Part shown: piece by piece, positions 12,493-39,713 of the stretch | Numbering within the stretch: position 1 is the first letter of the stretch | How the letters are laid out: each line of letters opens with the position of its first letter | NCBI RefSeq assembly: GCF_015277875.1 | Contig: NZ_CP063814.1 | Location: 558,001 to 622,000, forward strand | Direction: 5' to 3' | DNA: 64,000 nucleotides | From: Microbacterium luteum | Lineage (GTDB): Bacteria; Actinomycetota; Actinomycetes; Actinomycetales; Microbacteriaceae | The notes under the pieces: model-generated | What the model saw: the letters and a program-made list of their open reading frames with translations, nothing else | Told to the model about the DNA's origin: nothing | Database searches by the model: none | Translations under genes and position numbers: made by a program

Positions 12493-13083
12493 TCATCCCA
12501 TCCCGGGCGCCCCGTACTGGGCTCCGTCGGGGAGCTCGGGGCAGGAGGCATCGGCGGTCTGGGCTGCGATCTCTGCTCGCACGGCAATGCCGCCGGAGAC
12601 GGTTCGGAGGGTATACACGATTCCCTCCTGGGCGCCCATTTCGGGGATGTAGCCGAGGAGCATCCCGTCGCTGTTCATGCTGTCGGGCCGGTGGTCTCCC
12701 CATACGGAGATGAGGCTACCGGCGGGGTTTGCGTCGAGCCAGTCGGCGGTCTCGCCGAGGGTGGCGTCGGGGACCAACCAGAACGCCTCGAGCTCGGAGA
12801 TCGGCCCGCATGGCCAGCCGGTGTATGAGTAGAACGAGGCGACATCCGATGAGGCAGATATCGTGCCCGGTGGGAGGGAGATGTCGTCCAGCCAGGCCTG
12901 GGCCTGCGCGCGCGCCTGCTCGTCGTCGCTTCCCGATGCGATGACGCCGGAGGGGGATGGCGTCGATTCCGGCGTGATTTCAACTGCCGGCGCGGGCGAA
13001 CCCGCAGGCGTCGGAGAGGTCGCGCATCCGGTCAGGGCGAGGGCGGCAAGAACCGCTGCGGCGAAGGTGAGGCGGTGACGCAT
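12493..13083 (-). CDS. Putative lipoprotein, 196 aa
   Basis: Signal peptide MRHRLTFAAAVLAALALTGC with the lipobox ALTGC, then a Pro/Ser/Thr-rich linker to about residue 50. The mature domain has Cys residues near positions 92 and 180 that could form a disulfide, with a WPCGPISELEAFW segment. Expected on the outer face of the membrane. No named family recognised. Confidence 0.75.
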   Translation of the reverse strand: MRHRLTFAAAVLAALALTGCATSPTPAGSPAPAVEITPESTPSPSGVIASGSDDEQARAQAQAWLDDISLPPGTISASSDVASFYSYTGWPCGPISELEAFWLVPDATLGETADWLDANPAGSLISVWGDHRPDSMNSDGMLLGYIPEMGAQEGIVYTLRTVSGGIAVRAEIAAQTADASCPELPDGAQYGAPGMG

Positions 13084-13279
13084 CCGCCCACTCTAGAGGT
13101 ACCTGCTCACGTGGTTCGCCGCGGGCCTGAGACCCCGTCCTGCTCATCGGTGTGTCATGTCGATCCTCATACGGGCATCGGTCGCATGCGGGGCCGTCGC
13201 GCGCATCGCTCTGTTCTCGTTCGATGGGCGAGCGTGAAGGAGGATGTAACGGGTTGAGGAGGTGCGGACAGTACAGGGT

Positions 13280-13861
13280 ATGGATGCGGTGGATCGGTCG
13301 GAGCAGGCGCTGTGGGAGCGTGGTGTCGCCGGTGATGGTGATGCGTTCGGGCTGATCTTCGATCTCCACCGTGATCGTGTGTTCCGGCATGCGTACCGGA
13401 TCCTCCAGGACGTGCACGATGCTGAGGACGCGACCGCGGTCGCGTTCCTGGAGCTGTGGCGTCGGCGGCATCGGGTGCGGCGGGTCGACGGGTCGCCTCT
13501 GCCGTGGCTGCTGGTCACGACCACGAACACGTGCCGGAACCTCGACCGCGCGAAACGACGATACGGTGCGCTGTTGGAGGGGCTGCCGCACGGGTCGCCA
13601 GCACGGTCCGCGGAGGACATCGTCCTTGACCAGCTCACCGACGACGAGGTCCTCGCCGCGGCGCTGGGCATGCTCGGGCGGACGGACGCGGAACTGTTCG
13701 CGCTGGTCGCGCTCGAGCACTACTCGATCACGGACGCCGCCGCCGCGGTCGGCATCTCGCCAGGTGCGGCCCGCACCCGCATGCACCGCGCCCGTCACGC
13801 ACTGAAGCGCGAACTCGGGCATCAGACTCTCGCCAGCTACCTCTCCCAGGAGGCGACATGA
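13280..13861 (+). CDS. ECF-type RNA polymerase sigma factor
   Basis: A sigma-70 protein of the small extracytoplasmic type, 193 residues. Region 2 is present (FDLHRDRVFRHAYRILQD, then AEDATAVAFLELW), and region 4 carries the helix-turn-helix (SITDAAAAVGISPGAARTRM). The ATG at 13280 is used; an in-frame GTG at 13262 is possible. Its stop overlaps the start of the next gene (ATGA), which encodes a single-pass membrane protein that is probably its regulator or main target. Confidence 0.88.
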   Translation: MDAVDRSEQALWERGVAGDGDAFGLIFDLHRDRVFRHAYRILQDVHDAEDATAVAFLELWRRRHRVRRVDGSPLPWLLVTTTNTCRNLDRAKRRYGALLEGLPHGSPARSAEDIVLDQLTDDEVLAAALGMLGRTDAELFALVALEHYSITDAAAAVGISPGAARTRMHRARHALKRELGHQTLASYLSQEAT

Positions 13862-14622
13862 ACACCACACGCATGAGCCCCGAGTTCGCCACCGCGTTCC
13901 GGGCCCGACTGGTCGACCACGTCACCACGACTGCCCAGCCGCGGCGTCGCGGGCGTGTCCTGCTCACCGGCGGGGTGGCGTTGACCTTGGCCCTCGGCGG
14001 AACCGCCGCGGCCGCCGCCACCGGGCTGCTCCCCCTCCCGGGCGGGACCATGACCACCGACCTGTCCGCGGCTGTATCGGGGACCTTCGCCGGCACCGGC
14101 GCCTTGCCACTCGGGGAGCGACCGGCCGATGCGACCGGCGTCGCCGTGTCGCTGACCTGCCTGACACCCGGCACCTTCACCTTTGACGACGGCGCGTCCG
14201 TGACATGCACCACCATCGACGACACCACACGCCCCACCACCTACACGGTCCCCGTCGACGCGATCACCGGAAACCAGGTCACGATCGCAACCACGGCAGA
14301 TGCGGTGTGGTCGCTGACCGCGACGTGGGTGCACGCGGAGACCACCGCCTGGGCGGTCAACGACAACGGCTTCACGTACGGGGTGATCAACGACAACGGC
14401 GAACCCGATCTGATCGCCGTGATGACCACCGACAATCAGCCCGGTTACGTCTGGCAAAGCGACCTGAACGACGCCAACGGGACCACCGCCGCCGACTCAT
14501 TCACCTCACCCGAAGACGCCCTCCGCTGGCAAGCGCAGAACGCCGGGACCGTGCATCACATCCCCGTCTACGAGTCCGACGGCACCACACAAATCGGCGT
14601 CTTCCAAGTCGGCGGCAACTAA
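13858..14622 (+). CDS. Single-pass membrane protein coupled to the sigma factor
   Basis: A 254-residue protein with a short cytoplasmic N-terminus, one membrane helix (about residues 37-57) and a Thr-rich extracytoplasmic domain with two Cys residues. The 4-base overlap with the ECF sigma gene and this topology suggest a membrane partner, possibly an anti-sigma factor. It lacks the recognisable zinc-binding HxxxCxxC motif of many anti-sigma factors, so the role is inferred from context only. Confidence 0.65.
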   Translation: MNTTRMSPEFATAFRARLVDHVTTTAQPRRRGRVLLTGGVALTLALGGTAAAAATGLLPLPGGTMTTDLSAAVSGTFAGTGALPLGERPADATGVAVSLTCLTPGTFTFDDGASVTCTTIDDTTRPTTYTVPVDAITGNQVTIATTADAVWSLTATWVHAETTAWAVNDNGFTYGVINDNGEPDLIAVMTTDNQPGYVWQSDLNDANGTTAADSFTSPEDALRWQAQNAGTVHHIPVYESDGTTQIGVFQVGGN

Positions 14623-14799
14623 CCGAGCCGGAAGCGAGCAAAGGCCGACGATCGATCCTCAACCGGGCGGTACTGGGCCGCATGCATCGTCAAGCGTTGG
14701 ATTGGCGTGCGGTCCTCGGGGCTAGACCGCAGGCGGCTGCCGTCAGTTGCAGTCATTGAGACAGGTGGCCGGGATCGCGTCGTGATACGCGAAGCGTGT

Positions 14800-15789
14800 C
14801 TACATCTTCGCGGCAGCCTTCGGGCGTCCAAGGTCACGCACAAAACCGAGTTCGAGCAAGTACTCGTGGATGGTTGCGATTCCGTTAGTCGTGTCCTGCT
14901 CATACCGCTCGGCGAATGGGAACAGGAAGCTGGTGTTCTGCCCAGCTGCCTCACACCAGTAGTACCAAGCGAAGCCAAGGACCTGCGGCTTCGTGCCGAC
15001 CGCGGTCAGGTAGACGTGGTCAAGGTCCCCCAATGCGACGACCTTCGCCGCGATGACCTGCGCCGTTGCGAACGGGTTGTTCGCTGGCGCGAAGGATCGC
15101 GTTGCGGGCCGGTAGTCCCGTATCGACTCGCGAGCGTTCTCCAGCTTCAGGACACTCTCCTGATACATATGCGGTTGCAAGCTCGGCAGCCCCAGCAGGA
15201 TCACATGCTCAGCGTTGGGTTTGTCATCCGCGACAGCTTTGACCAGTCCGTGGTCGTATCCAGCGCCGATGATGAGCGCGTCGCGAGGGCTGGGGCGGTT
15301 GGTATGGGCACCTTCCATCCCGGGGATGAGCCCTACCCGAGCGACCGGCCCTCTGGTGAATCGCGTGCGCTCACCCTGAACGTAGGACTCTGGATCGGAG
15401 TAGTAGACCGTGACTTCGTCGACTCCTGCCCGCTTCAGCGCGAACGGCAGCATGGCGATGTGTGGGCGCATCATCCCGGTGATGTCGATGGCAACTCGCA
15501 TCCCTGCCAGTGCGGTCGCACCGCCAAGATGGTGGAGCACCTCCGCCCACGACTCCGCCGGGGCGATGGCCTGCGACGCGTTGACGAGCTCACCGTCGGG
15601 AAGTTCGTCACTGGTGTAGGCGTACTCCTCATGGGCGATCCACACCTTCCGCGTCGCGTTGACCGCGTCCGCGAGGAGTTGAACTCGTCTCGAGCTGTTG
15701 AACGAGGAGAGGAACAGGTCGTAATGCTGCGCGGGCAACTGCGCCAACGTGATCTTCGCCCGCCGGAACGCGGAGTATTCGATGCTCAT
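14800..15789 (-). CDS. Rossmann-like protein of the six-gene island
   Basis: A 329-residue soluble protein, last of four coupled minus-strand genes; its ATG overlaps the ATPase stop by one base. Strand-helix alternation suggests a Rossmannoid fold: YDLFLSSF near residue 23, AIDITGMMRPH at 100-110, VTVYYSDPESY at 116-126, LIIGAGYDHGLV at 162-173 and LGLPSLQPHMYQE at 189-201. The DITGxxR loop resembles the LTGGTK-type loop of CARF-related DUF1887 proteins, but this is a visual likeness only. No Walker motif, membrane helix or obvious nuclease triad. I propose a sensor or effector role in the island; family not identified. Confidence 0.75.
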   Translation of the reverse strand: MSIEYSAFRRAKITLAQLPAQHYDLFLSSFNSSRRVQLLADAVNATRKVWIAHEEYAYTSDELPDGELVNASQAIAPAESWAEVLHHLGGATALAGMRVAIDITGMMRPHIAMLPFALKRAGVDEVTVYYSDPESYVQGERTRFTRGPVARVGLIPGMEGAHTNRPSPRDALIIGAGYDHGLVKAVADDKPNAEHVILLGLPSLQPHMYQESVLKLENARESIRDYRPATRSFAPANNPFATAQVIAAKVVALGDLDHVYLTAVGTKPQVLGFAWYYWCEAAGQNTSFLFPFAERYEQDTTNGIATIHEYLLELGFVRDLGRPKAAAKM

Positions 15790-17765
15790 CAGAACAGCGG
15801 GTCTCGGGTGTCGATTGAACGACCGAATGGAGCGTTCAGCGCGAGTTCCAGGGATTCACGTGCACGGGAGAAGGAGAGCTCCGATACGGCGGGGCTGAAG
15901 ATCGCTTCGATGGTCTCGCTGCTGAACGTCGCGTCCCCGCGCCGGCCGGGCTTCAACCCCCACAAAGGTGTCAGCATCGGGTGAAGCTGGAACTTCCGAT
16001 GCTGTGAGCCGTGATTGCGAGCGGCTCGACCTCCAATCACTTCAACGAGAAGGCCATGGTCAAGGCACCGTTCCAGGACGCTCAGAGCGTCCTCTGACAC
16101 TCCCGTCAGCGGCGATGAGAATGTCGTGATGTCGATCTCGCTCGGTTTGTCCGAATACCGGATCGATTGCAGGTAGACGCCGAGCCGTCTCACCGCGATC
16201 TCGCATTCCTCGCCTTCGGTGCCGAGCGGTTTCGCGTCGGCGAGATACCACCGTGCTGCGTCGAGCACTCCTTCACTGAGCGCCCGTTCCGAAATGGGAA
16301 CGGCTCCGCTGAACACGTCCTCACCGTGGAAGTCCGCCCAATGCGACACGTACTTGAGGATCATGAGGAGGCTGCGCGGGAGGAATCCGGACATGCCGAC
16401 GAGTTCACCGAAACCGGCATACGCGGTGCGCCGGTTCGCTTCCTTGTAGATCTGGGCGACCGCGTCGCTCTTGCGCTGCTTGAAGAAGTTCGCAAGCTCT
16501 CTGCTCTCGCGGCCCTCGATGAGTGGTTCCACCCACACGCGAGCCCTCGATGCGGTCTCGGCAGACGGTGTCTGTCCGCTGGCCCAGTGTTGGTAGAACT
16601 TAAGAACCGCCAGCTTCTCCAGTAGCGGGTAGTCGGGCAGGGCGACTGCGGCGCACACGTCATCGGCGACGGCGGCGGAACGCGCGCGTTGGGTCGCGGT
16701 ACGCAGCCGCGTGAGGTAGGGACGTTCGTGCGGCGCGTACTTCTCAAGGACGGCTCCGAGGCGCTTGCTGAAGAACCGATCGTCGGATTCGAACGACAGG
16801 CGACCTATCCAGGTCTCCGCCTCTCCGGCGCTGAGTTCGAACTCTCGCAACCGCACGCTGATCAACTCGCGGCAGAACGCCTCATACGCTTTGGGGTCGC
16901 GCGCGTACGTGTCCTCAATCGTGTAGATCTCGTACTCGCTGCCCTTCTTGTTCTCCTCACCCGCGCTCAATGTCCTGTGCGTCTTGATACCCCAGCTTCG
17001 ACCACCGACCAGGAACGTCGCCGGTGCTTCCTTCTCACGGATCAGGGTGTTGAAGTAGATCTGCTGGTCATAGGCGAGGTTCTCGTACTCGTCGGCGAGG
17101 AACGTCACCCGGATCCCCTCAAAACCCGGGAGCCTGCTCACGGCCTGGCAGACCCGGAAGACGAGCTCGCCCGGGTTGGAGCGGATGTTGATGTCCAGCC
17201 GGCCGGTGTGAGCGGCGTTGTTGATGACCCAGTCGAGATCGCCTCGGATCGCGGACAGCCGTGCCAGCGCGTCCGACAGCGAGCGCCCCGCCCCGACGCT
17301 CTCCTCAGCCGACAACTGAATGGTGCCCGCGACCGCGTCGAACACGTCGGCCACATCTACCTCCGCCCAGCTCTCGGACTCCCCTACATCCCGCACCGTG
17401 GCGATGAGCAGTTCGGACAGCCACAGGTCCATGTAGTACGCGAACGCGGACGACCAGATGTCCGCGCTCTGTCCTTTTCCGACGAACCGGCTGCCGTTGA
17501 GGCCGCTGCATCGGAAGTACACGCCGAGGTAGCCGTCAGCTTGGATCTCGGCGAGCGGTCTGGTACCTCGCGCTTTCTGCAGCGGAAACGAGAAGTGCCG
17601 CATCAGGTGCGTACGACCGCCGCCCTTGACCCCAGTGAGAAACTGCGGCATCGGGCTGGCGGGGTCGGCGATAGCGCGCTCACGGCCGGCGAACGCGACG
17701 TAGGTCCGTTCGATCTGCGGGTCGTTGAGGTCGACCGCTTTCGTCACCTCGAACGGGCTACGCAT
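15789..17765 (-). CDS. ORC/CDC6-like AAA ATPase with altered P-loop
   Basis: A 658-residue STAND/ORC-CDC6-like ATPase. The P-loop region is GVKGGGRT (residues 45-52), with Arg51 where Lys is expected. Walker B is VTFLADEYENL (220-230, Asp225 and Glu226), and a sensor-like LVGGRSWGIKT follows at 252-262. The C-terminal 300 residues are helical, with probable winged-helix character near the end. The ATG at 17765 overlaps the phosphoribosyltransferase gene by 8 bases. I recall PRTase proteins paired with ORC-CDC6 ATPases being proposed as bacterial conflict systems. Here it probably senses DNA or switches the effectors; ATP hydrolysis may be weak. Confidence 0.8.
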   Translation of the reverse strand: MRSPFEVTKAVDLNDPQIERTYVAFAGRERAIADPASPMPQFLTGVKGGGRTHLMRHFSFPLQKARGTRPLAEIQADGYLGVYFRCSGLNGSRFVGKGQSADIWSSAFAYYMDLWLSELLIATVRDVGESESWAEVDVADVFDAVAGTIQLSAEESVGAGRSLSDALARLSAIRGDLDWVINNAAHTGRLDINIRSNPGELVFRVCQAVSRLPGFEGIRVTFLADEYENLAYDQQIYFNTLIREKEAPATFLVGGRSWGIKTHRTLSAGEENKKGSEYEIYTIEDTYARDPKAYEAFCRELISVRLREFELSAGEAETWIGRLSFESDDRFFSKRLGAVLEKYAPHERPYLTRLRTATQRARSAAVADDVCAAVALPDYPLLEKLAVLKFYQHWASGQTPSAETASRARVWVEPLIEGRESRELANFFKQRKSDAVAQIYKEANRRTAYAGFGELVGMSGFLPRSLLMILKYVSHWADFHGEDVFSGAVPISERALSEGVLDAARWYLADAKPLGTEGEECEIAVRRLGVYLQSIRYSDKPSEIDITTFSSPLTGVSEDALSVLERCLDHGLLVEVIGGRAARNHGSQHRKFQLHPMLTPLWGLKPGRRGDATFSSETIEAIFSPAVSELSFSRARESLELALNAPFGRSIDTRDPLF

Positions 17766-18747
17766 CACTCCCCAGCTCCTTCTTGTAGCGGCGGAACACC
17801 GGCTCCCACGCCACGACACTGTCGTTGACCCAGAAGATGGGCAGGGTGTGGTCGGGAACGTTGTGGTGCAGGCCCAGCATCAACTGGCCGTCCCCGAAGC
17901 CGAAGCAGTTTCCCGGCGCCAGGTCAGCACCGTAGCGCTCAGCGACCATGCGCCCGATGTCTCGCTCGATCCCCGGCGGAGGGTCCGAGTACACGTGGGA
18001 CTCCTCGCTGAAGGTGAGCTGCGACTGGTTCAGTTCATGGACGGCTTCCACCCGGTCAAAGCCCAGGTCGCGGACCGCGTCCAGTCCTTTCGGCTTCGCG
18101 AACATCGTGAGGTACCAGATCTCAACATCCTGGCCGCTGCGGGTCGCGGCTGCGCGGAGAAGCTCAACGAAGTCCACGTTGTGTTGCACCGCTTGAGTGC
18201 CAGTGCCGAGCACATCGTCGATGAACACCACGCGTCGAAGCTCGGGGTCCGCGATCCGGAACTCATTGTCATCGCTCGAGTGGGAAAGGATCTGGTAGGG
18301 GTTCGGGAACAGTTCCTTGTCGAGGGTGTTGTCCTGGCGGAAGTAGTAGAGCAGGTGCGTTCCGCTCTCGGACGGGTTGCCGACGCCCAGAAACCTGGTG
18401 CGTGCCAGCTGCGCCTCGTACTCGGCCTGGAGGTACTCCGCATCAGAGCGTCCGCCCGCGTCGGCCCGAATGCGCTGGATGATCTCGTACCGGAAGAGGT
18501 CTCGGTACATCGCCGTGAGCAGCTCCCGTACTTCACGCAACCCGAAGTACGTGAAGTGGGACAGCAGGTGAGCTGCGTGGGATTGCTCCACCCGAACGGA
18601 GACATTCTCGGTCTTGCCGGTGAAGTTCTCCAGCCACCGGTTCACATCGGGGACCGTGCCGTTTCCTTCCCACAGCACTTCGGACAGCACTTTGATACGT
18701 CGGCGGACGCCTGCTTCGTCCTCGTCTGCACCACCCAGTTCAAGCAT
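17758..18747 (-). CDS. Phosphoribosyltransferase-like protein (PRTase-CE type)
   Basis: A 329-residue protein with a clear PRPP-binding loop VVFIDDVLGTGT (residues 173-184), the hallmark of type I phosphoribosyltransferases. The N-terminal 165 residues are helical and not part of ordinary nucleotide-salvage enzymes. The C-terminal part includes GLHHNVPDHTLPIFW, a segment I associate with this conflict-system group. It overlaps the methyltransferase gene by 8 bases and the ATPase gene by 8 bases, so the proteins are probably made together. It may modify a nucleotide or nucleic acid using PRPP, or only bind a nucleotide; substrate unknown. Confidence 0.82.
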   Translation of the reverse strand: MLELGGADEDEAGVRRRIKVLSEVLWEGNGTVPDVNRWLENFTGKTENVSVRVEQSHAAHLLSHFTYFGLREVRELLTAMYRDLFRYEIIQRIRADAGGRSDAEYLQAEYEAQLARTRFLGVGNPSESGTHLLYYFRQDNTLDKELFPNPYQILSHSSDDNEFRIADPELRRVVFIDDVLGTGTQAVQHNVDFVELLRAAATRSGQDVEIWYLTMFAKPKGLDAVRDLGFDRVEAVHELNQSQLTFSEESHVYSDPPPGIERDIGRMVAERYGADLAPGNCFGFGDGQLMLGLHHNVPDHTLPIFWVNDSVVAWEPVFRRYKKELGSDA

Positions 18748-20068
18748 CTGGATTCACCTCGAAGACGTCGATGTGCTCTGCGGGCGACGGCGTCCCGTTG
18801 CGCCGGGCGGTCAGCAGTGTCCGGCCACGGATCGGGTCGCGCACAGACAGCGTCCGCTGGTAGCCCAGACACTGCACGATCTCCGCGAGATGCTGGCTTG
18901 TGTGCAGAGTGCTCCCTACGACGCTGTTTGTACCGGTCACGAGAGCGATCCGCTTCACGCCCGTGGTGCGTGCGTTCGTGAACGCCGCCTGCATGTCGAC
19001 GAAGTACGTCAGGTAGATGGCTGCCCGGCGTGCGTCCTTCCTGCCGATGCCTTCGAGGAGGCCGCGGAGGCTCGGGCTCCACACGTCGGCGGTCGTCAGT
19101 GTCGCATCCTTCGCGGAGAGATGTTCGCGGCCGATGTTGCCATGCTCTATGTGTACGGTCCGTCCCGTTGGCGCGTGCCCCAACCAGCCCGCCTCCAGAC
19201 TCGTGCTCCGCACGTACTTCTGCGCCGCGCCATACGGGGGGCTTGAGAGCAGCAGGGTGGTGCGTGCCTCCTCTGGCGAGGGCCACATGTCGAGATCGCG
19301 CGCGTCGCCAGTCCACACGTGCGCGGGTGGACGGCGCCGCGGCAGCCGCTCGAGCTTCGCCACCATCGCCGTCGCCTCGGCACCCCACGCCTCCCACACA
19401 TCCGAGGCGGTCGCGGCCGCGTTCCTCTGCGTGCGCACCGGGACGGGAATCCGCGGGTCGGTTGTCGCGACGCGCCGCGCCGTCAGCACCAGACACAGCA
19501 TCGCCACTTCCCGATCGGCGGCGGATAGGTCAGCGGCCTCCGAAATGACGGTGAGGAGCCTTCCCAACGCCGAAAGCGCCTGCGGCGCGTACCAGCGACC
19601 AAGCGCGGTCGACGGGATCGTGGGACGGCGGCACCGTTTCGCTGCCGCGAGGACCTCATCAAGCCGCGTCTCTGCGTCGCCAACCTCCTCCGCGCGCACT
19701 TTGACACGGCTGACGAGTGCCGCGACGGGGTTCTGTTCCACGCCGATGGACGCGATGCCCCGAAGCTGCGCTTCGAGCAGGACGGTACCCGAGCCGACGA
19801 ACGGGTCGAAGACCAAGTCGACGCCGTCGACTATCGCATCGGTCGCGAGCAGGAATCTCGGAATGTGACGCAGGAGTCGCGCAGGGTACGGGTACAGCCC
19901 GTGGGTGTACTCGTTCGCCGGAAGCACACCCACCAGCTGTCGAAAACTCACATCGAGCGACTCGCCCGAATATCTGCGCGCCAGGTCGGCGTATTCGCGT
20001 GAGTAGTGACGTGAGGTGACGTGGGTGGGCGGTGGCACGGCCTCAGCGGACACGAGGTCACTCGACAC
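18740..20068 (-). CDS. DNA amino-methyltransferase
   Basis: A 442-residue protein. THGLYPYPARLLRHIPRFLL (55-74) resembles the H-YPAKF-IP lead-in of beta-class DNA methyltransferases. The SAM motif DPFVGSGT lies at 88-95 and the catalytic SPPYG at 276-280, so methylation of an exocyclic amino group (N4-cytosine or N6-adenine) is expected. It starts at GTG 20068 and is first of the four-gene minus-strand operon. No restriction endonuclease with a recognisable motif is adjacent. It may mark host DNA for the neighbouring ATPase/PRTase module. Confidence 0.87.
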   Translation of the reverse strand: MSSDLVSAEAVPPPTHVTSRHYSREYADLARRYSGESLDVSFRQLVGVLPANEYTHGLYPYPARLLRHIPRFLLATDAIVDGVDLVFDPFVGSGTVLLEAQLRGIASIGVEQNPVAALVSRVKVRAEEVGDAETRLDEVLAAAKRCRRPTIPSTALGRWYAPQALSALGRLLTVISEAADLSAADREVAMLCLVLTARRVATTDPRIPVPVRTQRNAAATASDVWEAWGAEATAMVAKLERLPRRRPPAHVWTGDARDLDMWPSPEEARTTLLLSSPPYGAAQKYVRSTSLEAGWLGHAPTGRTVHIEHGNIGREHLSAKDATLTTADVWSPSLRGLLEGIGRKDARRAAIYLTYFVDMQAAFTNARTTGVKRIALVTGTNSVVGSTLHTSQHLAEIVQCLGYQRTLSVRDPIRGRTLLTARRNGTPSPAEHIDVFEVNPDA

Positions 20069-20256
20069 TGCTAACCCTGCCCGTCACGTCTTTACGGCTC
20101 ACTCTCGATTACGGTACAGCGCCCACGCCCCGGGACGTGCTATTGCCGCCGACGCACCCCGGATCATCTGCTCGTTTGATCCGCCGCAGGGTATGATTCA
20201 CAGCCCGAAGCCGATAGGCTTAAGGCCTCCTACACGCCGCCCTGGAGGGGATCTCG
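20069..20256. promoter_or_regulatory. Divergent promoter region of the six-gene island
   Basis: The only intergenic stretch of the island, separating the four leftward genes from the two rightward ones. A TATGAT box at 20192-20197 could be the -10 of the rightward promoter; I see no matching -35. A CTGGAGGGG site lies just before the ATG at 20257. Leftward signals are not obvious. Confidence 0.45.
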
Positions 20257-20499
20257 ATGACACTTGTTGCCGACCGCGTTGCAGACTCACGAACCCAACA
20301 GTTGAAGGCACTCATCGAAATCCTCGTCGACGTCGTCAAGGCGCACGGCGGGACGGTGTCGCAGCGTGAAGCGATGCGTGAGGCGGCAACGAAGGCCGAG
20401 ATGTCGGTTTCCGAGATGCCGTACATCGTCAACTCTGCCGTCGCCGACCATCGGATAACCGCGGACCTGCGGTCTGGGAAGTTGGAACTTGTAGTCTGA
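20257..20499 (+). CDS. Small helical protein upstream of the dGTPase
   Basis: An 80-residue protein with a good GGAGGGG ribosome binding site. It is mostly helical (residues 5-60) and ends in a short beta hairpin (ITADLRSGKLELVV), a layout compatible with a small winged-helix fold. It lies four bases from the dGTPase-like gene, so the two are cotranscribed. It could be a DNA-binding regulator or an inhibitor of the hydrolase; no family recognised. Confidence 0.7.
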   Translation: MTLVADRVADSRTQQLKALIEILVDVVKAHGGTVSQREAMREAATKAEMSVSEMPYIVNSAVADHRITADLRSGKLELVV

Positions 20500-20503
20500 G
20501 TCG

Positions 20504-22051
20504 GTGGCAGTTGAGAACCCGCCGGACGCTCTAGTCAAACTTGCCGACGGATCGTGGGTTCTGCCGCGCACCCGCGAGCAACGCTACGGCCGACGGGAAG
20601 TGTCCCGACCGAGCGCCCGGGATCACCGCACGGAAACCGAACGCGACCGGGGCCGACTGGGCTACTCGGCGTACCTGCGACGCCTCGCCGGCGTGACCCA
20701 GGTCGTCTCGCCCGAGCTCGCGTCCGCACAGATGCACAGTCGCTCATCGCACACCCACAAGGTGGCCATGATCGCGCGAGAGATTGCAGACCATGTGACA
20801 CGCAGTGCCGATGAGAACGGCGCCTGGCGGGCAGTCATCGCCGCTGCGGGCGGCCTAGACATCGCCGCCTGTGAGGCCGCCGGACTTGCACACGACATCG
20901 GCCACCCCCCGTTCGGCCATGCCGGTGAGGACGCGCTGGACGCCTACCTGGAACTCAAGGACGTCGAGGACGGATTCGAAGGGAACGCGCAGACGTTCCG
21001 AACCGTGACACGTCTTGACCGCAACAAGGGCACCACCGTCTACGGGCTGAACCTGACGAACGTCACGCTGGCGGCGGTACTCAAGTACCCGTATGCGAAG
21101 CGCAAGCCGTACAAGGACGGGAAGAACCGAAAGTTCGGGGCCTACCTCGACGATGCCGACCAGCTCCGGTACGTGCGCGCTGCAGTCCTCGACCTCGGAG
21201 AGGCCGGGGAGGACCACGGGCGGCAAACGCTGGAAGCCTCCATCATGGACCTCGCCGACGATGTCGCCTACGCCATCCACGACCTGGAGGACTTCCTCGC
21301 AGCCGGTCTCATCGATGTCGGCCTGGTCCTCGACGACATCAATGCCGCGCTCGACGACGCCGGCATCGTTCAAGACATGCGCGAGAAGGCAGACTTCCGC
21401 AGCGCCAACTTCAGGAAGACACCAGGGCGGTTCTCCCAGCCCCTGGTGTTCGTCGAAGCGTCAAAGCGGCATCGAGTGGGGTACTCACCCCACTACAACG
21501 ACCGGGACTATGCGGCCGCCCTGCACGATGTGGGCCGCTTCCTCACCCAGCTCGGGGACCCCGACCTTCAGGACTACGCGCAAAATCTGAGGCTGCTGCT
21601 GAAGGATTTCATCACGAAGTTCTTCGACGCCATCGAATTGAACGAGGACCCACCTTACGCCGACGGCCCGTCGGTGTACCTCACGTCGGAAGCCTGGCAT
21701 CAAATGCAGGTGCTGAAATCCATCACGCGCCATTACCTAGTGTCTCGACCCCGCATGGGTTCGATGCAGCGGGCTCAGACGAGGTCCATCGAGATTCTGA
21801 TGGAAGGTCTCGCGGACTGGATCTGTACCGCCCCCGAGGAACACTCTCTCCCGCCGACGCTGCTGAGCATGCTCGCGCGCAACAACGTCGCGGTGCCTAT
21901 CACTCGGCAGTCGACAGACTCCCTCGAGCCTGAGCACTTCCGCGCCCTGTCCGACTATGTGTGCACCATGTCCGACTCCGAGGCCCTCATGCGATCCCAG
22001 TGGCTCGCAGGCACGGAAGTCCCCGGCTCGTTCCGCCTCGCACTGTCCTGA
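20504..22051 (+). CDS. dGTPase-family HD-domain hydrolase
   Basis: A 515-residue protein with dGTP triphosphohydrolase landmarks: ETERDRGRLGYSAYLRRLAG and VTQV (residues 44-66), HSRSSHTHK (78-86), the metal-binding HD in GLAHDIGHPPFGH (127-139, His130-Asp131), GFEGNAQTF (157-165) and SIMDLADDVAYAIHDLED (246-263). Family members remove triphosphate from dNTPs. Depletion of dNTPs by related enzymes is an established anti-phage mechanism. GTG start at 20504. The gene is divergent from the methyltransferase/PRTase/ATPase operon, which suggests a role as an effector rather than housekeeping. Confidence 0.88.
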   Translation: MAVENPPDALVKLADGSWVLPRTREQRYGRREVSRPSARDHRTETERDRGRLGYSAYLRRLAGVTQVVSPELASAQMHSRSSHTHKVAMIAREIADHVTRSADENGAWRAVIAAAGGLDIAACEAAGLAHDIGHPPFGHAGEDALDAYLELKDVEDGFEGNAQTFRTVTRLDRNKGTTVYGLNLTNVTLAAVLKYPYAKRKPYKDGKNRKFGAYLDDADQLRYVRAAVLDLGEAGEDHGRQTLEASIMDLADDVAYAIHDLEDFLAAGLIDVGLVLDDINAALDDAGIVQDMREKADFRSANFRKTPGRFSQPLVFVEASKRHRVGYSPHYNDRDYAAALHDVGRFLTQLGDPDLQDYAQNLRLLLKDFITKFFDAIELNEDPPYADGPSVYLTSEAWHQMQVLKSITRHYLVSRPRMGSMQRAQTRSIEILMEGLADWICTAPEEHSLPPTLLSMLARNNVAVPITRQSTDSLEPEHFRALSDYVCTMSDSEALMRSQWLAGTEVPGSFRLALS

Positions 22052-22616
22052 TGGTTTGGAGATCCAACTTTCTAGGAGACGGGTCGAAGTAGCTGGCGCA
22101 AGGCGAGCACCGGTACTGCGAATGCAAAGCCCGCGCCGGGGCCCGGAGTCTCTGCCGCCAACTCCCGTGGGACTGTTGAGGCGCTGTCCTCGTGGCCGTG
22201 CGAACCCAACAAGTCGCTAACCGGACGGTGATTGGTGCTCTGGGGCGTCACCATCGTCTTCAAAGTCGCCCGGCTCGTCGTCAAGGTGCTCGGGGGCAAT
22301 ATGAGGTTACCGTCGCGCGGTGCGGGAGAGTTCTAGCACGCCGACTTTCGGGCCCGATGACGTTCGTGGACCCTCGGAGAGAGTGCGCGATCAGCGGTCC
22401 GCGATCGCGTTCTCTCTCGCAACCGAAGGCGTTGGCGTCCGAGCCTTGCGACCACGTTCGGAAGGCCGGCCCCTGACGATGCCCGATAAGCGCAGCTCAT
22501 CCGAGACGCCGGATCGCCGGCCTGTTACCCAGAGGACAACGGCTCCAATGCGATGCACGCAGGCACTTTCTGTGAAAGCACTCGTAGGTTAGACATTATT
22601 GGCGTACTCTGAGCGC
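22052..22616. other. Non-coding stretch before the relaxase
   Basis: No convincing gene in 565 bases; short frames lack ribosome binding sites and protein-like composition. It holds the inverted repeat at 22377-22418. Position directly upstream of a relaxase gene makes it the best place for an origin of transfer. Confidence 0.5.
22377..22418. repeat. Imperfect inverted repeat, candidate oriT element
   Basis: GAGAGAGTGCGCGATC (22377-22392) and GATCGCGTTCTCTCTC (22403-22418) pair at 14 of 16 positions around a 10-base spacer. MobF relaxases recognise hairpins beside their nic site, and the element lies 200 bases upstream of the relaxase gene. No nic sequence can be assigned by eye. Confidence 0.45.
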
Positions 22617-25600
22617 ATGCGCGGAGGCCTCGAACGCTGGAAGCGGGGTGTCGAATCGCAGGGGGTTCGGCAGGCGATGGCCTACGCGTTCAAGGGAAGC
22701 TGTGACTCTCACCTCCGCAGCGTCACGGGCATCGAGGCGCTCGCCGCCTATGGTGGAGGAGACGCCGCCTGCGTCACTCGGTTCACCATCGAGGCCGGCG
22801 TCATCACGAGCGACGGACTCGACGCCGGTGAGCTACGCCGTTGGGTCGACGGGCGCGACCCACACACCAACGACGCGCGTGGTCGCGAAATCAGATCACC
22901 GCACGCCGACCTTCTCCTCGATGGCACAATCAATGCTCCGAAGTCATACAGCATCGCCGCGCTGATCAACGACGACCTGGCGACCGAGTTCGAAGCCCTG
23001 CAAAGCCGCCTTCGCACCCAGATCATCACGACCTGGCAGCGAGAGCTGAATGCTCGCCGTGGCGCCGGGGGCAGCATCCGAGAATCGCTTCGCCGCATCG
23101 AAGTGGTCGAACTGCAGCACCGACGGTCGCGGGCGCTCGACCCGCACATCCACCGGCACCTGTGGCTGAACGTCAAGGTGCTCGGCGAGGACGGCAAGTG
23201 GTCGAATGTCGATTCCCGTGTCGCGATGAAGCTCCACACCCTCATCAACGCCGAGGGGGAACTCGCGGCTCGCACCGACCCGGAGTGGATCGACGCACTT
23301 GCGCGAAACGGATACTCCCTCGACGACGCGGGCGAGATCGCCGAACTCGCGCACGCCGTCCGTCCGCTCTCGCGGCGTTCGAACCAGATCGAGGCAAACC
23401 GTGCGAAGTTGCTGCTCGAGTGGCGGTCGGAGCATCCGGGACAGGAGCCCGACCACGACGTACTGCAGCACATCGACCGGCTTGCCTGGGCGAAGAACCG
23501 TCCGAACAAGCCCGGCGTGGTGGATGAGTCCGAGTGGGCGGAGCTCATCCGCGACGAGCTGCGCACGATCGACCCCGACCTGCTGCGGCCGCGGTCCACC
23601 AAGAACCTGCAGGCGGTGGCCATCCAGGATGTCGATCGAGACCTGCTTGCGGCGCGGGCGCTCGTAGACGCCGACTCCCGCTCGGCTGCATGCGGTGGAA
23701 GGTTCAGCGCCTACGACCTGCGAGCGGGCGCAACGCGCGCAGTTGCGGCGTCCGGGGTCGTCGCCTACCGCGACGATCTGCAGGAGCTCATTGACGACGT
23801 CATGGCGCGGGGTCTCGATCACACCGTCGACCTGCTCGGGGCCGAACGCGAGCGGCCGGAGCACATCAAGGGCTTTATGGCCGCCACGACCGCGGGGCTG
23901 AAGGTCGAGCTGGCCGCGCGGTTCGATGCGCTCACGCGGGCGGGGCAGCCGGTGGGTCACGACGACATTGCCGACATCGCTGACCTGGTCCTGGACGCCG
24001 ACGTGACGCTCGACGAAGGTCAAGCGGATGCTGCGGCCGCGATCGCTGGCACGGACCGTCTGGTGTCGGTGACGGGGCCGGCGGGCGCGGGCAAGACAAC
24101 GATGCTCCGCGTCGCGCGTGCCGCGCTGCAGCGGCAGGGACGGCAGCTCGTTGTGGTCGCGCCGACGAAGAAGGCTGCGTCGGTCGCGGGACGGGAGATC
24201 GGCGCGACCGCGTTGAGCCTGCACGCGCTGCTCGCCGACCATGGCTGGCGCTGGGGTCGCGACGAAGCCGGTGCCGAGGTGTGGACGCGGCTGCGGGTCG
24301 GCGATGCGGATCCGCGCACAGGTGGGATGTTCGCTGGGCCGCGTCGGTTCGCGCTGCGGCCGGGTGATCGGGTCGTCGTCGACGAGGCGGGAATGGTGGA
24401 TCTGCACACTGCTTCGGCGCTGGCGGCGGTCGCTGCGGAAACTGGCGCCGGCGTCGCGATGGTCGGCGACCACCTCCAGGCCATGCCGGTCGGCCACGCC
24501 GGCGCGATGGCGTGCATGACCCGCCGCGCTACTGCCGTCGTCGAGCTGACTGCGGTGCATCGCTTCCGCGACCCGGACTATGCCGCGCTCACGCTGCGCA
24601 TGCGGGAACCGGCGTCGCGCGATGATGCGCTCGCCGTTGCGTCCGAGCTCGATGCGCGGGGTTCGATTCGCCGGGTGACGGATGCTGCGCAAGCCAGAGA
24701 CGTGATGGTCGACGCCTGGTTCCGCTGGGCAGCGACGCGCCGACGCGTGGCGCTGGTGACGAGCACGAACGAAGAGGCGGACGCGATCAACGAGGCGATC
24801 CAGGAGCGGCGGGTGGAACTCGGGCAGCTGCACGCTGGCCGACTGGCCATGGGGCAGGGGGAGCAGCGACTGCTCGAGGGGGACGTTGTGCAGACACGGC
24901 TCAATGATCGAGAGGCTGACGTGGAGAACCGAGCGTTGTGGACGATTCGTCGGATTGGTTCTTCGGACATCGTCCTGGTCGCGCTAGGGGACAGTGGCGA
25001 TACGCGGCGAGTGCCGCTCGAGTATGCAGCGGAACATGTGCACTTGGCCTACGCCTCGACCGTGCACGGCATCCAGGGCGAAACGACGGATGCATCGATC
25101 GTTGGCCCCGGCGTCGACGCTTCGGGGCTCTACGTGGGGATGACACGCGGGCGGTTGCACAACGAGGCGATCGCAGTCGGGTGGAGTTCGGATGCCGCGC
25201 AGGAACATGTCGCGGACAGCATGATGCGCGGCGCCCAGGAGGTGAGCATCGACGACTCGGTGCGGGCCGCACGGAATGAGCTTGGACGTGCGGCTCGTGC
25301 TTCGGCGGTTCCACGTAGGGAGAGTGACGCCGCGGGCGTACGCCCTGACCATCCATCGGATGCGGCTCACCGTCGCGAATGGCTAGAGTCCGCCACCGAT
25401 GCCTTGGCCTCACTCGAAGCTCAGATCGCGGGCGAGGCGGCCGTGCACCACGCGCGCGGGTCAGCTGACTCGAAGAGGTGCGAGGCTCTGATGCGTCAAC
25501 GGGATCGAGTCCGTCTCGCTATCGATGAAATCGGTCGGGCTCACGAACGAACGGCCCCAGAGGTGCCAAACCTCGCAGCCCCCCACCGGGACCACGTGCG

Positions 25601-25652
25601 CGCTCCGCATGCGGTGAATCACGCCGTCGACCATGCCTCGCGTGGTCTCTAA
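22617..25652 (+). CDS. MobF-type conjugative relaxase-helicase
   Basis: A 1011-residue TrwC/TraI-like protein. The N-terminal relaxase domain has the three-His metal motif in DPHIHRHLWLN (His167, His169, His171) and a candidate catalytic Tyr23 or Tyr45 nearby. The helicase part has Walker A GPAGAGKT (477-484), a DEAG Walker B near 590 and the late motif STVHGIQGET near 825. It should nick oriT and unwind the transferred strand. ATG 22617 is preferred (MRGG start); TTG 22599 is also in frame. It lies on the strand opposite the T4SS operon, 11 kb away. Confidence 0.92.
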   Translation: MRGGLERWKRGVESQGVRQAMAYAFKGSCDSHLRSVTGIEALAAYGGGDAACVTRFTIEAGVITSDGLDAGELRRWVDGRDPHTNDARGREIRSPHADLLLDGTINAPKSYSIAALINDDLATEFEALQSRLRTQIITTWQRELNARRGAGGSIRESLRRIEVVELQHRRSRALDPHIHRHLWLNVKVLGEDGKWSNVDSRVAMKLHTLINAEGELAARTDPEWIDALARNGYSLDDAGEIAELAHAVRPLSRRSNQIEANRAKLLLEWRSEHPGQEPDHDVLQHIDRLAWAKNRPNKPGVVDESEWAELIRDELRTIDPDLLRPRSTKNLQAVAIQDVDRDLLAARALVDADSRSAACGGRFSAYDLRAGATRAVAASGVVAYRDDLQELIDDVMARGLDHTVDLLGAERERPEHIKGFMAATTAGLKVELAARFDALTRAGQPVGHDDIADIADLVLDADVTLDEGQADAAAAIAGTDRLVSVTGPAGAGKTTMLRVARAALQRQGRQLVVVAPTKKAASVAGREIGATALSLHALLADHGWRWGRDEAGAEVWTRLRVGDADPRTGGMFAGPRRFALRPGDRVVVDEAGMVDLHTASALAAVAAETGAGVAMVGDHLQAMPVGHAGAMACMTRRATAVVELTAVHRFRDPDYAALTLRMREPASRDDALAVASELDARGSIRRVTDAAQARDVMVDAWFRWAATRRRVALVTSTNEEADAINEAIQERRVELGQLHAGRLAMGQGEQRLLEGDVVQTRLNDREADVENRALWTIRRIGSSDIVLVALGDSGDTRRVPLEYAAEHVHLAYASTVHGIQGETTDASIVGPGVDASGLYVGMTRGRLHNEAIAVGWSSDAAQEHVADSMMRGAQEVSIDDSVRAARNELGRAARASAVPRRESDAAGVRPDHPSDAAHRREWLESATDALASLEAQIAGEAAVHHARGSADSKRCEALMRQRDRVRLAIDEIGRAHERTAPEVPNLAAPHRDHVRAPHAVNHAVDHASRGL

Positions 25653-37516: not shown

Positions 37517-37905
37517 GCCGCCTCCTGAACGTGGGACAACTTCCGCCGAAGGATGTTCAGGGCGATCGCCGACGCTGCGCGCCGGCCGCGATGGTGAGCG
37601 AGGACGCGATCGTGCTCGATGATCTGGTGCAGCATCCCGTGGCAATACGGATGCAGCGGCACAAGGTCGGTGTGACGCTCGAACGCTCGCCACGAGTCGC
37701 TGACGAACTGGACGCCGCTATAAGTGACATGGTGCAGTTCGAGCTGATGCTCGGTGGCGGGCAGATCGCATCCCGCGCACCTCAGCGGGCATCCGAGTCG
37801 GTTCTGCTTGCGGAACCATCGGGCGCGGCGCGCCCGCCATGCTGGCGAGGACAGGAACTGCGTCCGGTACGTGTTGCGTGTCCGAGGCTTGCGACGGTTA
37901 CTCAC
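37513..37905 (-). CDS. HNH-like protein
   Basis: A 130-residue basic protein with a possible HNH/zinc centre: CPLRCAGCDLP (CxxxC..C), then LELHHVTYSG and DLVPLHPYCHGMLHQ. The HH and C-H residues fit the metal-binding and catalytic positions of small HNH nucleases. It overlaps the coupling-protein gene upstream and the hypothetical downstream by 4 bases each. A nuclease role in element processing or in entry exclusion is possible; activity not shown. Confidence 0.7.
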   Translation of the reverse strand: MSNRRKPRTRNTYRTQFLSSPAWRARRARWFRKQNRLGCPLRCAGCDLPATEHQLELHHVTYSGVQFVSDSWRAFERHTDLVPLHPYCHGMLHQIIEHDRVLAHHRGRRAASAIALNILRRKLSHVQEAA

Positions 37906-39713
37906 CCCTCACTCACCTCCTCAGGTCCCGGCGTTATCCGTGCGTGGTGTCTTTGGATGAAGACCGCCTGCTGCTCTCGTTCCATGGCGCGTTTAGTGGT
38001 CTGGATGTCGTCCGCATCGCGTCGCTCGTCCCATCCGGTGAGGTCGAGGAGCGTGCTGCGGCGGTTGCGGTAAGCCAGAAGGCCGACGCTCGGCGGCATC
38101 CGTCGAATCTCGTCGACCGACATCAGGGGAAGACGTTCGTGATGTTCGCTGGTGGAGTGCCCTGACTCGCGCGTGGACCACGAGCGCTGTGTGCGCGTCC
38201 TCTGCCGGCTCCCGAGGATGGCTTCGATGTCGCGAAGGTGACTCACGTTCGAAGCGCCGCCGAGAACGACCTTCGCGGTTGCCGCAGCCCAGATCGTCTC
38301 CGCCTCTGCACGCGACCAAGAGGTCTCGGCTTGAGATAGCGCCTGCAGCACGATGAACGTGCAGATGCCGCGCCCGCCACCGTCGGCCATGATGCGCGGG
38401 AGGTTGCCCCACCGGAACATGTTCGCGATCTCATCGAGGATGAGCCCGAGGGGATGCTGCAGCCGCGCGCCCGGAGACGAGACGGCCCGGGCGCGAGCGA
38501 CCTCGACGATGTCGTCGAGCAACGCGCCGATGAAGCCGCCCATGGCTCCCGCGCCCGCCGCGGAGCCGATCAGGTAGAGGGTGTTCGCGTCGTCGAGGAA
38601 CTCCTCCGGATCGAAGACCGGTTCGCCAGGACGCGGTGCGAGGGACTCGCGGATCTGCGGAATCGACAGAGGCGCCACTGCGCCTTGGACACCGAACCAG
38701 ATCGACGAGACGAGCTTGTCGTCGGAGGAGAGTGTCGCGTCGAGGGCGTCGCCCCAGCCGGGTGCGCCGTCGGACCGCAGGATCGACACAGCGCCCTTCC
38801 GCGCGAGAACCGGGCTGGTACCCCACTTGTAGAAGTCGTCGATCGTGCAGTCCCCGACGGCAGCCGCGTGAAGGAGGCGTCCGAGCACCACACCGGCCGC
38901 TTGCGCCCACTCGCCGTTGATCGAGGAAGCGCCGATCGCCGTGCCGGTGATGATGGCGTTGCCTCGCTGTGTCGCGACCAGAGGGTCCTCGCATCCCGCG
39001 AACGGCGAGATCCGCGTCGGATGCCGCACCCCGGTGAGTTCCTGTGGGTCGAAGACGTGCACCTGCCCTCGGCGCTCGCGCATGCGCATGGTGGCGGTGA
39101 GGTTGTCGTTCGTCGTGGATGTCGTGATCAGCGGACCTGACCAGTCGAGGATTGCGGATATCAGCACGCGGAAGCCTTTGCCCGATCGCGGCGGACCTTC
39201 CAGGACGACCGAATCCTCTATCGAGACGAACACCTCGCTGCCGCGTGCACGACCGACGCGCCATCCGACATCGGTCGGCTTCGGGTGACGGATGTCGGGC
39301 CGCAGGTGCGGTGCGCGGCGCAAAACGGCCTTGGCCGAGAGGTCTTGACGAACCTCTGCGGTATTCGCGAAGCCCGGTCGTGCGAGCAGGTCGGCGACGA
39401 ACGCGCGGTCGGATTCCGTGTAGCGGCGGTAGGCGATAACGCCGGCGGCCGTGAGCGCAGCGATCAGCGCGAGGACGACATAGTCCGCGACGATGATGTG
39501 CGCGCGCGGTATCTCGCAGCCCGCCGGCGCTGCGTAGGTGGCCGAATCGCCGCTGAGAGCGAGCCAGAGCCCGGAGAAGAAGTGGTCCGCCGACGGGCGG
39601 GCGCCGCATGCGATCCACGTCACGAACTCGGCCATGAACGAGAACGCGAGGTTGAGGAGGACGGCCATCGCGATCAGGATCGCGATCCCCTTCCCGAGTA
39701 TCCCCTGGCTCAT
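37902..39713 (-). CDS. VirD4/TraG-type coupling protein
   Basis: A 603-residue type IV coupling protein. Two N-terminal helices (about residues 8-30 and 72-95), then a motor domain with Walker A GPPRSGKG (173-180), Walker B GLILDEIANM (near 418) and the late WAAATAKVVLGG segment. It links the relaxosome to the secretion channel. Located after the ParA-like gene with only 12 bases between them. The C-terminal 80 residues are polar and may contact relaxase. Confidence 0.9.
   Translation of the reverse strand: MSQGILGKGIAILIAMAVLLNLAFSFMAEFVTWIACGARPSADHFFSGLWLALSGDSATYAAPAGCEIPRAHIIVADYVVLALIAALTAAGVIAYRRYTESDRAFVADLLARPGFANTAEVRQDLSAKAVLRRAPHLRPDIRHPKPTDVGWRVGRARGSEVFVSIEDSVVLEGPPRSGKGFRVLISAILDWSGPLITTSTTNDNLTATMRMRERRGQVHVFDPQELTGVRHPTRISPFAGCEDPLVATQRGNAIITGTAIGASSINGEWAQAAGVVLGRLLHAAAVGDCTIDDFYKWGTSPVLARKGAVSILRSDGAPGWGDALDATLSSDDKLVSSIWFGVQGAVAPLSIPQIRESLAPRPGEPVFDPEEFLDDANTLYLIGSAAGAGAMGGFIGALLDDIVEVARARAVSSPGARLQHPLGLILDEIANMFRWGNLPRIMADGGGRGICTFIVLQALSQAETSWSRAEAETIWAAATAKVVLGGASNVSHLRDIEAILGSRQRTRTQRSWSTRESGHSTSEHHERLPLMSVDEIRRMPPSVGLLAYRNRRSTLLDLTGWDERRDADDIQTTKRAMEREQQAVFIQRHHARITPGPEEVSEG

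Follow-up and report, generated by a model that had tools for sequence, protein, structure and literature searches.

Closest described systems

Phosphoribosyltransferases (PRTases) of conflict systems have been proposed to make nucleotide signals in Ter systems (excerpts of PMC5512222 and PMC7824862), and two Pfam conflict families, PRTase-CE (PF24390) and ORC-CDC6-like (PF24389), are represented in the locus described here. This locus lies in a 64,000-nucleotide stretch of Microbacterium luteum (GCF_015277875.1, NZ_CP063814.1, forward-strand positions 558,001-622,000), which we call the window and whose positions are used for all coordinates of the locus below. It consists of an operon of four genes, encoding a DNA methyltransferase, a PRTase, an ORC-CDC6-like ATPase and a tandem-CARF protein, and of a divergent pair encoding a small protein and a dGTPase. 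We propose that the four-gene operon is a candidate for a mobile, methylation-linked defence system with a nucleotide-based mechanism and a swappable deoxynucleoside triphosphate (dNTP) enzyme, a reading that we believe about as readily as we doubt it.

The PRTase and the ATPase of the window score above the cut-offs of the two Pfam families, with 176 and 332 bits, respectively, against 27 in both cases. Unlike the window, 30 of the 33 PRTase-CE loci fetched from samples of two phyla are without a complete CARF/ORC core, and neither Pfam family covers the methyltransferase or the swappable dNTP enzyme. The tandem-CARF protein shares a match to the CARF6 model of PADLOC and its fold with CARF and SAVED proteins such as Csm6, Cap5 and the structure 6sce, which we take to be the nuclease Can1. 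It differs from these proteins in having no fused effector, and no Cas10 or CD-NTase was matched among the six proteins (Pfam, PADLOC and NCBIfam) or among 20 other open reading frames (ORFs) of the window scanned with Pfam. BREX includes a methyltransferase. The locus has a methyltransferase and an ORC/STAND-type ATPase in common with BREX and methylation-based exclusion (for the ATPase, excerpts of PMC12839542), but neither PglZ nor any other BREX component was matched by name in PADLOC by the six proteins (for the methyltransferase, among the best 25 of 41 families).

In E. coli, a DprA-PRTase pair confers protection from T7 and lambda, and in this system, as in the PRTase effectors of retrons and possibly in the window, the PRTase is the presumed effector next to a DNA-sensing partner (excerpts of PMC9122126); the partners differ from those found here, and the likeness is one of description, not of sequence comparison. 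DefensePredictor validated systems in E. coli that contain a thymidylate synthase and, according to a figure legend, a PRTase (excerpts of PMC13092281). Its DS-32 is a PRTase-like anti-phage protein by NCBIfam name (NF053875), although the string DS-32 is absent from the main text of that article. DS-32 was ruled out as the same system, since the window PRTase scores 14.5 against the NF053875 cut-off of 250; the PRTase of one related locus (L049, see below) has no match to this model either. Anti-phage defence by a dGTPase was reportedly described by Tal et al in 2022. The window dGTPase shares the dGTP triphosphohydrolase subfamily (NCBIfam TIGR01353, 206.8 bits against a cut-off of 152.35; Pfam HD and HD_assoc), but it falls below the antiphage_dGTPase cut-off (NF041026, 179.6 against 400) and is linked, within its clade, to a core of several genes.

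PRTase-CE, PF24390 and PF24389 are not mentioned among the matches listed in our literature searches, and no description of a core with an exchangeable methyltransferase and dNTP enzyme was found in the literature searched, which mostly excluded subscription papers and preprints. The parts are already catalogued in Pfam and PADLOC; their combination as one system is not, within that literature. If real, a PRTase-ORC-tandem-CARF core with an interchangeable methyltransferase and a dNTP-enzyme slot filled from six families would make three questions testable: the role of PRTases in defence, the targets of stand-alone CARF proteins outside CRISPR and CBASS, and nucleotide-metabolism enzymes in defence loci. 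The slot pattern suggests a candidate defence working through DNA building blocks.

Organization and protein families of the window locus

The operon is encoded on the minus strand, where the methyltransferase gene (18740..20068) overlaps the PRTase gene (17758..18747) by 8 bases, the PRTase gene overlaps the ORC gene (15789..17765) by 8 bases, and the ORC gene overlaps gene A, encoding the tandem-CARF protein (14800..15789), by a single base. The longest ORF of the ATPase in the window ORF list spans 15789-17819, and the ATG at 17765 is the likely start because the closest relatives are about 658 amino acids long. A divergent control region of 188 bp (20069..20256), which is the gap between the flanking ORFs and in which a repeat search found short repeats only, separates the operon from the plus-strand genes for the small protein (20257..20499) and the dGTPase (20504..22051); by ORF coordinates, these lie 4 bases apart. 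All six genes have a raised, coding-like third-position GC content. An ORF check reproduced this layout, as given in an earlier sequence-based annotation of the locus (the original prediction), exactly to the base, including all three overlaps, the spacing of the plus-strand pair and the length of the divergent region. The coherent, defence-like module with a nucleotide theme that had been proposed is also supported. The dGTPase and the small gene accompany the operon in the window and in two further loci (L002 and L003).

The PRTase has a phosphoribosyltransferase fold and a loop of the phosphoribosyl pyrophosphate (PRPP) type, FIDDVLGTGTQ, in which D178 is invariant and D177 nearly invariant across an alignment of 40 rows; its predicted structure is nearest to uracil and orotate PRTases (UPRT and OPRT). 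The ORC-CDC6-like protein is an AAA+ ATPase with an intact Walker B motif, and its profile found no credible match among PDB sequences. Gene A encodes a stand-alone protein of 329 amino acids, a probable nucleotide sensor, which matches the PADLOC model PDLC01914 (CARF6) with 305 bits and has a CARF Rossmann fold, with CARF and SAVED proteins as matches in the fold comparison. The description of this gene product in the original prediction as an unspecified Rossmann-like protein does not hold, since both PADLOC and the fold identify it as a CARF protein, which refines it to a tandem-CARF, SAVED-like one.

The fourth operon gene encodes a DNA amino-methyltransferase with an SPPY motif seen by eye. 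It is assigned to MTase_II by PADLOC and scores 26.0 bits with the Pfam N6_N4 family, just below the cut-off of 26.7; a restriction-type nuclease partner had no match in the six proteins, the other window genes being only partly scanned. The small protein (80 amino acids) has relatives in L002 and L003 and no significant family match in Pfam, PADLOC or NCBIfam, where its matches are weak (best E 0.015). The HD motifs of the dGTPase-family phosphohydrolase, which occupies the dNTP-enzyme slot of the window, are intact. The source genome (3.52 Mb, a single contig) encodes another dGTPase at 1708940, so that the window dGTPase is a second copy.

A conserved core with an exchanged methyltransferase

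Searching 84,980 species genomes with the ORC profile, by way of two peptide patterns, yielded 205 stretches and 55 confirmed loci, which together with ten plasmid loci and the window form a set of 66; the pairs L002/L003 and L059/L068 within it are nearly identical. The PRTase adjoins the ORC protein in all 55 loci and the CARF protein in 53 of them, across many phyla, and the two loci without CARF (L012 and L050) end at contig edges. One core gene is split in two pieces in L017 and one in L030; the annotation of both L059 and L068 splits the ORC gene in two.

A tree of the core, built by a quick method, has two deep clades. Methyltransferases are present in 64 of the 66 loci, with a different family and a different usual place in each clade: 38 loci have the window-type enzyme upstream of the PRTase, and 26 have a different N6-methyltransferase, mostly downstream of CARF. 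No methyltransferase matched in L004 or in L050, which ends at a contig edge. That the methyltransferase was swapped for another family and yet retained argues that the module would need methylation. Judged by gene content, the core is PRTase-ORC-CARF plus a methyltransferase, not six genes. In L004, the only complete core without a methyltransferase match, a PLD-helicase-DUF3427 protein follows the core (13142-16465).

The distribution of the module is patchy. In a sample of the bacterial family to which the source genome belongs, 7 of 398 genomes have it (that genome included), six of them with the full core. Cores are found on conjugative plasmids and in a conjugative element. In the window, a TrwC-type (MobF) relaxase-helicase (22599..25652, plus strand; PF08751, 110 bits) and a TraG-type coupling protein (37902-39713, Pfam scan) are encoded nearby, which by their predicted functions places the four-gene locus in or beside a conjugative element. 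Genes for TIR, SIR2, NACHT and WYL proteins are among the neighbours of some plasmid loci. The PRTase had no match in 50,697 phage records (tblastn, 1e-5), a scan of viral contigs with the ORC profile gave 42 stretches, none of them a relative, and the L051 locus had no megablast match in E. coli genomes.

The swappable dNTP-enzyme slot

An enzyme of dNTP metabolism occupies a slot at 33 of the 66 loci. By locus, these are ThyX (12), all-alpha dUTPase (10), trimeric dUTPase (5), dGTPase (3), ThyA (3) and a PRA-PH protein of MazG type (1), with both a dUTPase and ThyX in L042. The number falls to 32 once L008 is dropped, where the ThyA is the sole one of its genome, lies 2.4 kb away on the other strand and failed the ThyA motif pattern. 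Overlap with the core (methyltransferase included) or a distance of at most 50 bp from it is seen for the slot gene of 27 loci; the ThyX gene of L025, 195 bp from the CARF gene, is outside this group. The 358 kb within 3 kb of the core edge contain 35 matches to the slot families (34 genes, one of them split in two), and the 521 kb further out contain none, counts that are not independent because the families were picked after being seen beside the core and the loci are related.

On the core tree (quick method, L008 counted as having none), the slot states require at least 13 changes, and ThyX alone, which is present in both clades, requires 5. The motifs are intact in the ThyX proteins, apart from two broken genes considered below, and in the ThyA proteins of L021 and L024. 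All five trimeric slot dUTPases keep the conserved blocks, and the slot dGTPases are intact in the window, in L002 and, as far as its contig runs, in L003; the patterns for all-alpha dUTPases and PRA-PH proteins are too loose to judge intactness.

That the core merely sits beside housekeeping thyA, thyX or dut genes was ruled out because most of the genomes examined have another such enzyme besides the slot copy, a check that left out L011, L040, L047, L050 and the plasmid loci. Two ThyX genes are present in each genome of L015, L025 and L053, two ThyA genes in those of L021 and L024, and a further trimeric dUTPase in those of L012, L030, L042 and L056; the L042 genome encodes a ThyA besides its slot ThyX. 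In each of the six genomes searched that have a dUTPase_2 slot gene (L035, L039, L045, L049, L051 and L055), the slot gene is the single PF08761 gene, and a trimeric dUTPase is also encoded. Exceptions are L019, without another PF00692 gene, and L010, in which the second ThyX is a short piece. A whole-genome search of 29 source genomes for four slot families found about 75 such genes, of which 18 lie at the core, where some 0.1 would be expected, figures used as a contrast only given the post hoc choice of families and the relatedness of the loci.

As a negative control, we used the PRTase-CE loci of 398 sampled Pseudomonadota genomes and 395 sampled Bacteroidota genomes. All Pseudomonadota places over the PF24390 cut-off were fetched except that of L049 itself, as were 15 of the 20 Bacteroidota genomes over it besides genome G015. 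With the same profiles, no slot enzyme was found in any of the 30 loci without a full core (16 and 14 from the two samples), a set that includes some short loci and, among the 16, four with weak matches to the ATPase or CARF.

The dGTPase and the limits of the six-gene set

The original prediction joined all six genes in one system, an idea that was to fail if the dGTPase and the small gene rarely accompanied the operon elsewhere. A dGTPase occurs at 3 of the 66 loci, namely the window, L002 and L003, which form one branch of the core tree and all have the small gene alongside. As a universal set, the six-gene system is ruled out by this count; as a set of the window's clade, it stands.

The clade-level link was followed in metagenome protein clusters by matching the sizes of their longest contigs, an indirect measure in which the sequences themselves were not read. 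Such sizes are shared with a dGTPase cluster by 17 of 23 CARF clusters (at least 62% identity) and 15 of 23 ORC clusters (at least 51% identity), and with CARF or ORC clusters by 19 of 24 dGTPase clusters (at least 55% identity, one row with 62% identity over 37% of the query having been dropped). Among the more distant clusters entered, the corresponding counts are 1 of 63 for CARF, 1 of 51 for ORC and 2 of 86 for dGTPase. On this evidence, the close dGTPase subfamily is bound to the operon of the window's clade, and the six-gene set is real only within that clade.

The small gene and the dGTPase might instead form a separate defence unit that happens to lie beside a complete four-gene system in a defence island, which is unlikely but the least unlikely of the alternatives to our reading. 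The pair is a divergent, separate transcription unit, and dGTPase relatives of 38-50% identity are numerous but seldom linked to a core, as the 2 of 86 distant clusters indicate. Microbacteriaceae genomes with a core also encode three other dGTPases, which are paralogues of 30-33% identity with no core or small gene within 15 kb. Independence fits poorly with the contig sizes shared by most close CARF and dGTPase clusters, and with the distant core L119, which has a dGTPase 33% identical to that of the window and a dUTPase upstream of it. The L119 genome encodes one more dGTPase besides this one, and the 100-amino-acid gene before the L119 core-linked dGTPase has no similarity to the small gene.

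Proposed mechanism and alternatives

We infer the defence role, the marking of self, the order of events and each catalytic role from the gene content. In the proposed scheme, the methyltransferase would mark resident DNA, and the ORC-CDC6-like ATPase, probably with the methyltransferase or the PRTase, would detect unmarked or replicating foreign DNA. The tandem-CARF protein would bind a nucleotide ligand and gate the response, and the PRTase, as effector or signal maker, would halt DNA synthesis by acting on PRPP or nucleotides of the pyrimidine type. The slot enzyme, here a dGTPase and elsewhere a dUTPase, ThyX, ThyA or MazG-type hydrolase, may adjust the dNTP pool. It is unlikely to be the sole weapon because half of the loci have no recognised slot enzyme; most likely, it contains or tunes the effect on the host rather than being an indispensable weapon.

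Several observations weigh against this proposal. Besides the post hoc choice of the slot families, 33 of the 66 loci have no recognised slot enzyme, and the other genes adjacent to the core vary (GatB, a peptidase, TyrRS, a resolvase, HipA and others). Seven further cores (L079, L081, L082, L083, L117, L119 and L134, with L084 left out as weak and without a PRTase match, and L080 taken as the contig of L009, both having 24697 bases) include a single one with a slot enzyme, L119; this is lower than the one in two of the main set but within chance (Fisher p 0.11), and no different from the 0 of 30 in the control (p 0.19). The six proteins include no messenger synthase or nuclease by Pfam, PADLOC or NCBIfam. 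The Walker A motif of the window ATPase, GVKGGGRT, has arginine in place of lysine, and the ThyX genes of L007 and L059 are broken.

The arginine is shared by the ORC proteins of L002-L010, L012 and L015 (GGKGGGRT or GGKGTGRT type), and lysine is found in the other loci compared. The two nearly identical Rhizobium plasmids differ in ThyX, which is broken in L059 (4670-5585) and intact in L068 (4671-5585).

A slightly less likely alternative than that of independent neighbours is an antimetabolite with self-immunity. Here the PRTase would convert a base analogue into a pyrimidine nucleotide whose toxicity comes from blocked thymidylate synthesis or from misincorporation, with the slot enzyme serving as the producer's resistance gene. 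A single purpose would then cover slot enzymes that make dTMP as well as those that hydrolyse dNTPs, and in most genomes checked the slot enzyme is additional to another one. The resemblance of the PRTase model to UPRT and OPRT is also consistent with it. Gain of thymidylate synthase confers fluorouracil resistance. In 5-fluorouracil therapy, dUTPase counteracts the drug, its expression correlating negatively with response, and OPRT level is tied to fluoropyrimidine sensitivity (excerpts of PMC6071274, the latter by reference titles). A bolder reading, of the same slight probability, is a thymidylate-branch immunity, in which the PRTase would make a toxic nucleotide, or a signal, when unmethylated DNA is recognised. 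The 'drug-resistance' enzyme that the module would bring along could be exchanged among thymidylate synthase, dUTPase, a MazG-type hydrolase and dGTPase, which are the same two resistance routes as are known for fluoropyrimidine drugs.

Improbable to a further degree is dNTP depletion, with the slot enzyme as the weapon that the core releases or activates on infection. The dGTPase, dUTPase and MazG-type families hydrolyse dNTPs, defence by dGTPases and dCTP deaminases against phages is a precedent, and the HD motifs of the window enzyme are intact. However, ThyX and ThyA make dTMP, a dUTPase removes no canonical dNTP, the slot is empty of recognised enzymes in half of the loci, and the window dGTPase reaches 180 bits against the antiphage_dGTPase cut-off of 400. 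Least probable is uracil control, in which slot enzymes keep dUTP low and host DNA free of uracil while uracil or modified DNA triggers recognition by the ORC protein and methyltransferase or attack by the PRTase: both dUTPase families, ThyX and ThyA lower dUTP or dUMP, and L042 combines a dUTPase with ThyX, but a dGTPase does not fit, and Pfam, PADLOC and NCBIfam gave no match to a uracil-binding domain for any of the six proteins.

Variant loci and neighbouring genes

Some loci carry additional genes next to the core. In L043, the gene after CARF (12814-14502) encodes another ORC-CDC6-like protein, which is shorter and has a zinc ribbon, and in L025 the CARF gene is followed by ThyX and two more methyltransferases of the same family (13143-16691). 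The distant PRTase-CE/ORC operons L124 (4961-13093), L129 and L130 have no methyltransferase match. An SIS-HAD hydrolase and a PfkB kinase adjoin the operon of L124, which would suit the production of a sugar or nucleoside metabolite.

In the window, a sigma-factor-like gene, recognised by eye, and an overlapping second gene lie at 13262-14622, just past the 3' end of the operon. The RES-domain family includes toxins, and a RES-domain protein (PF08808) is encoded at 1496-2209.

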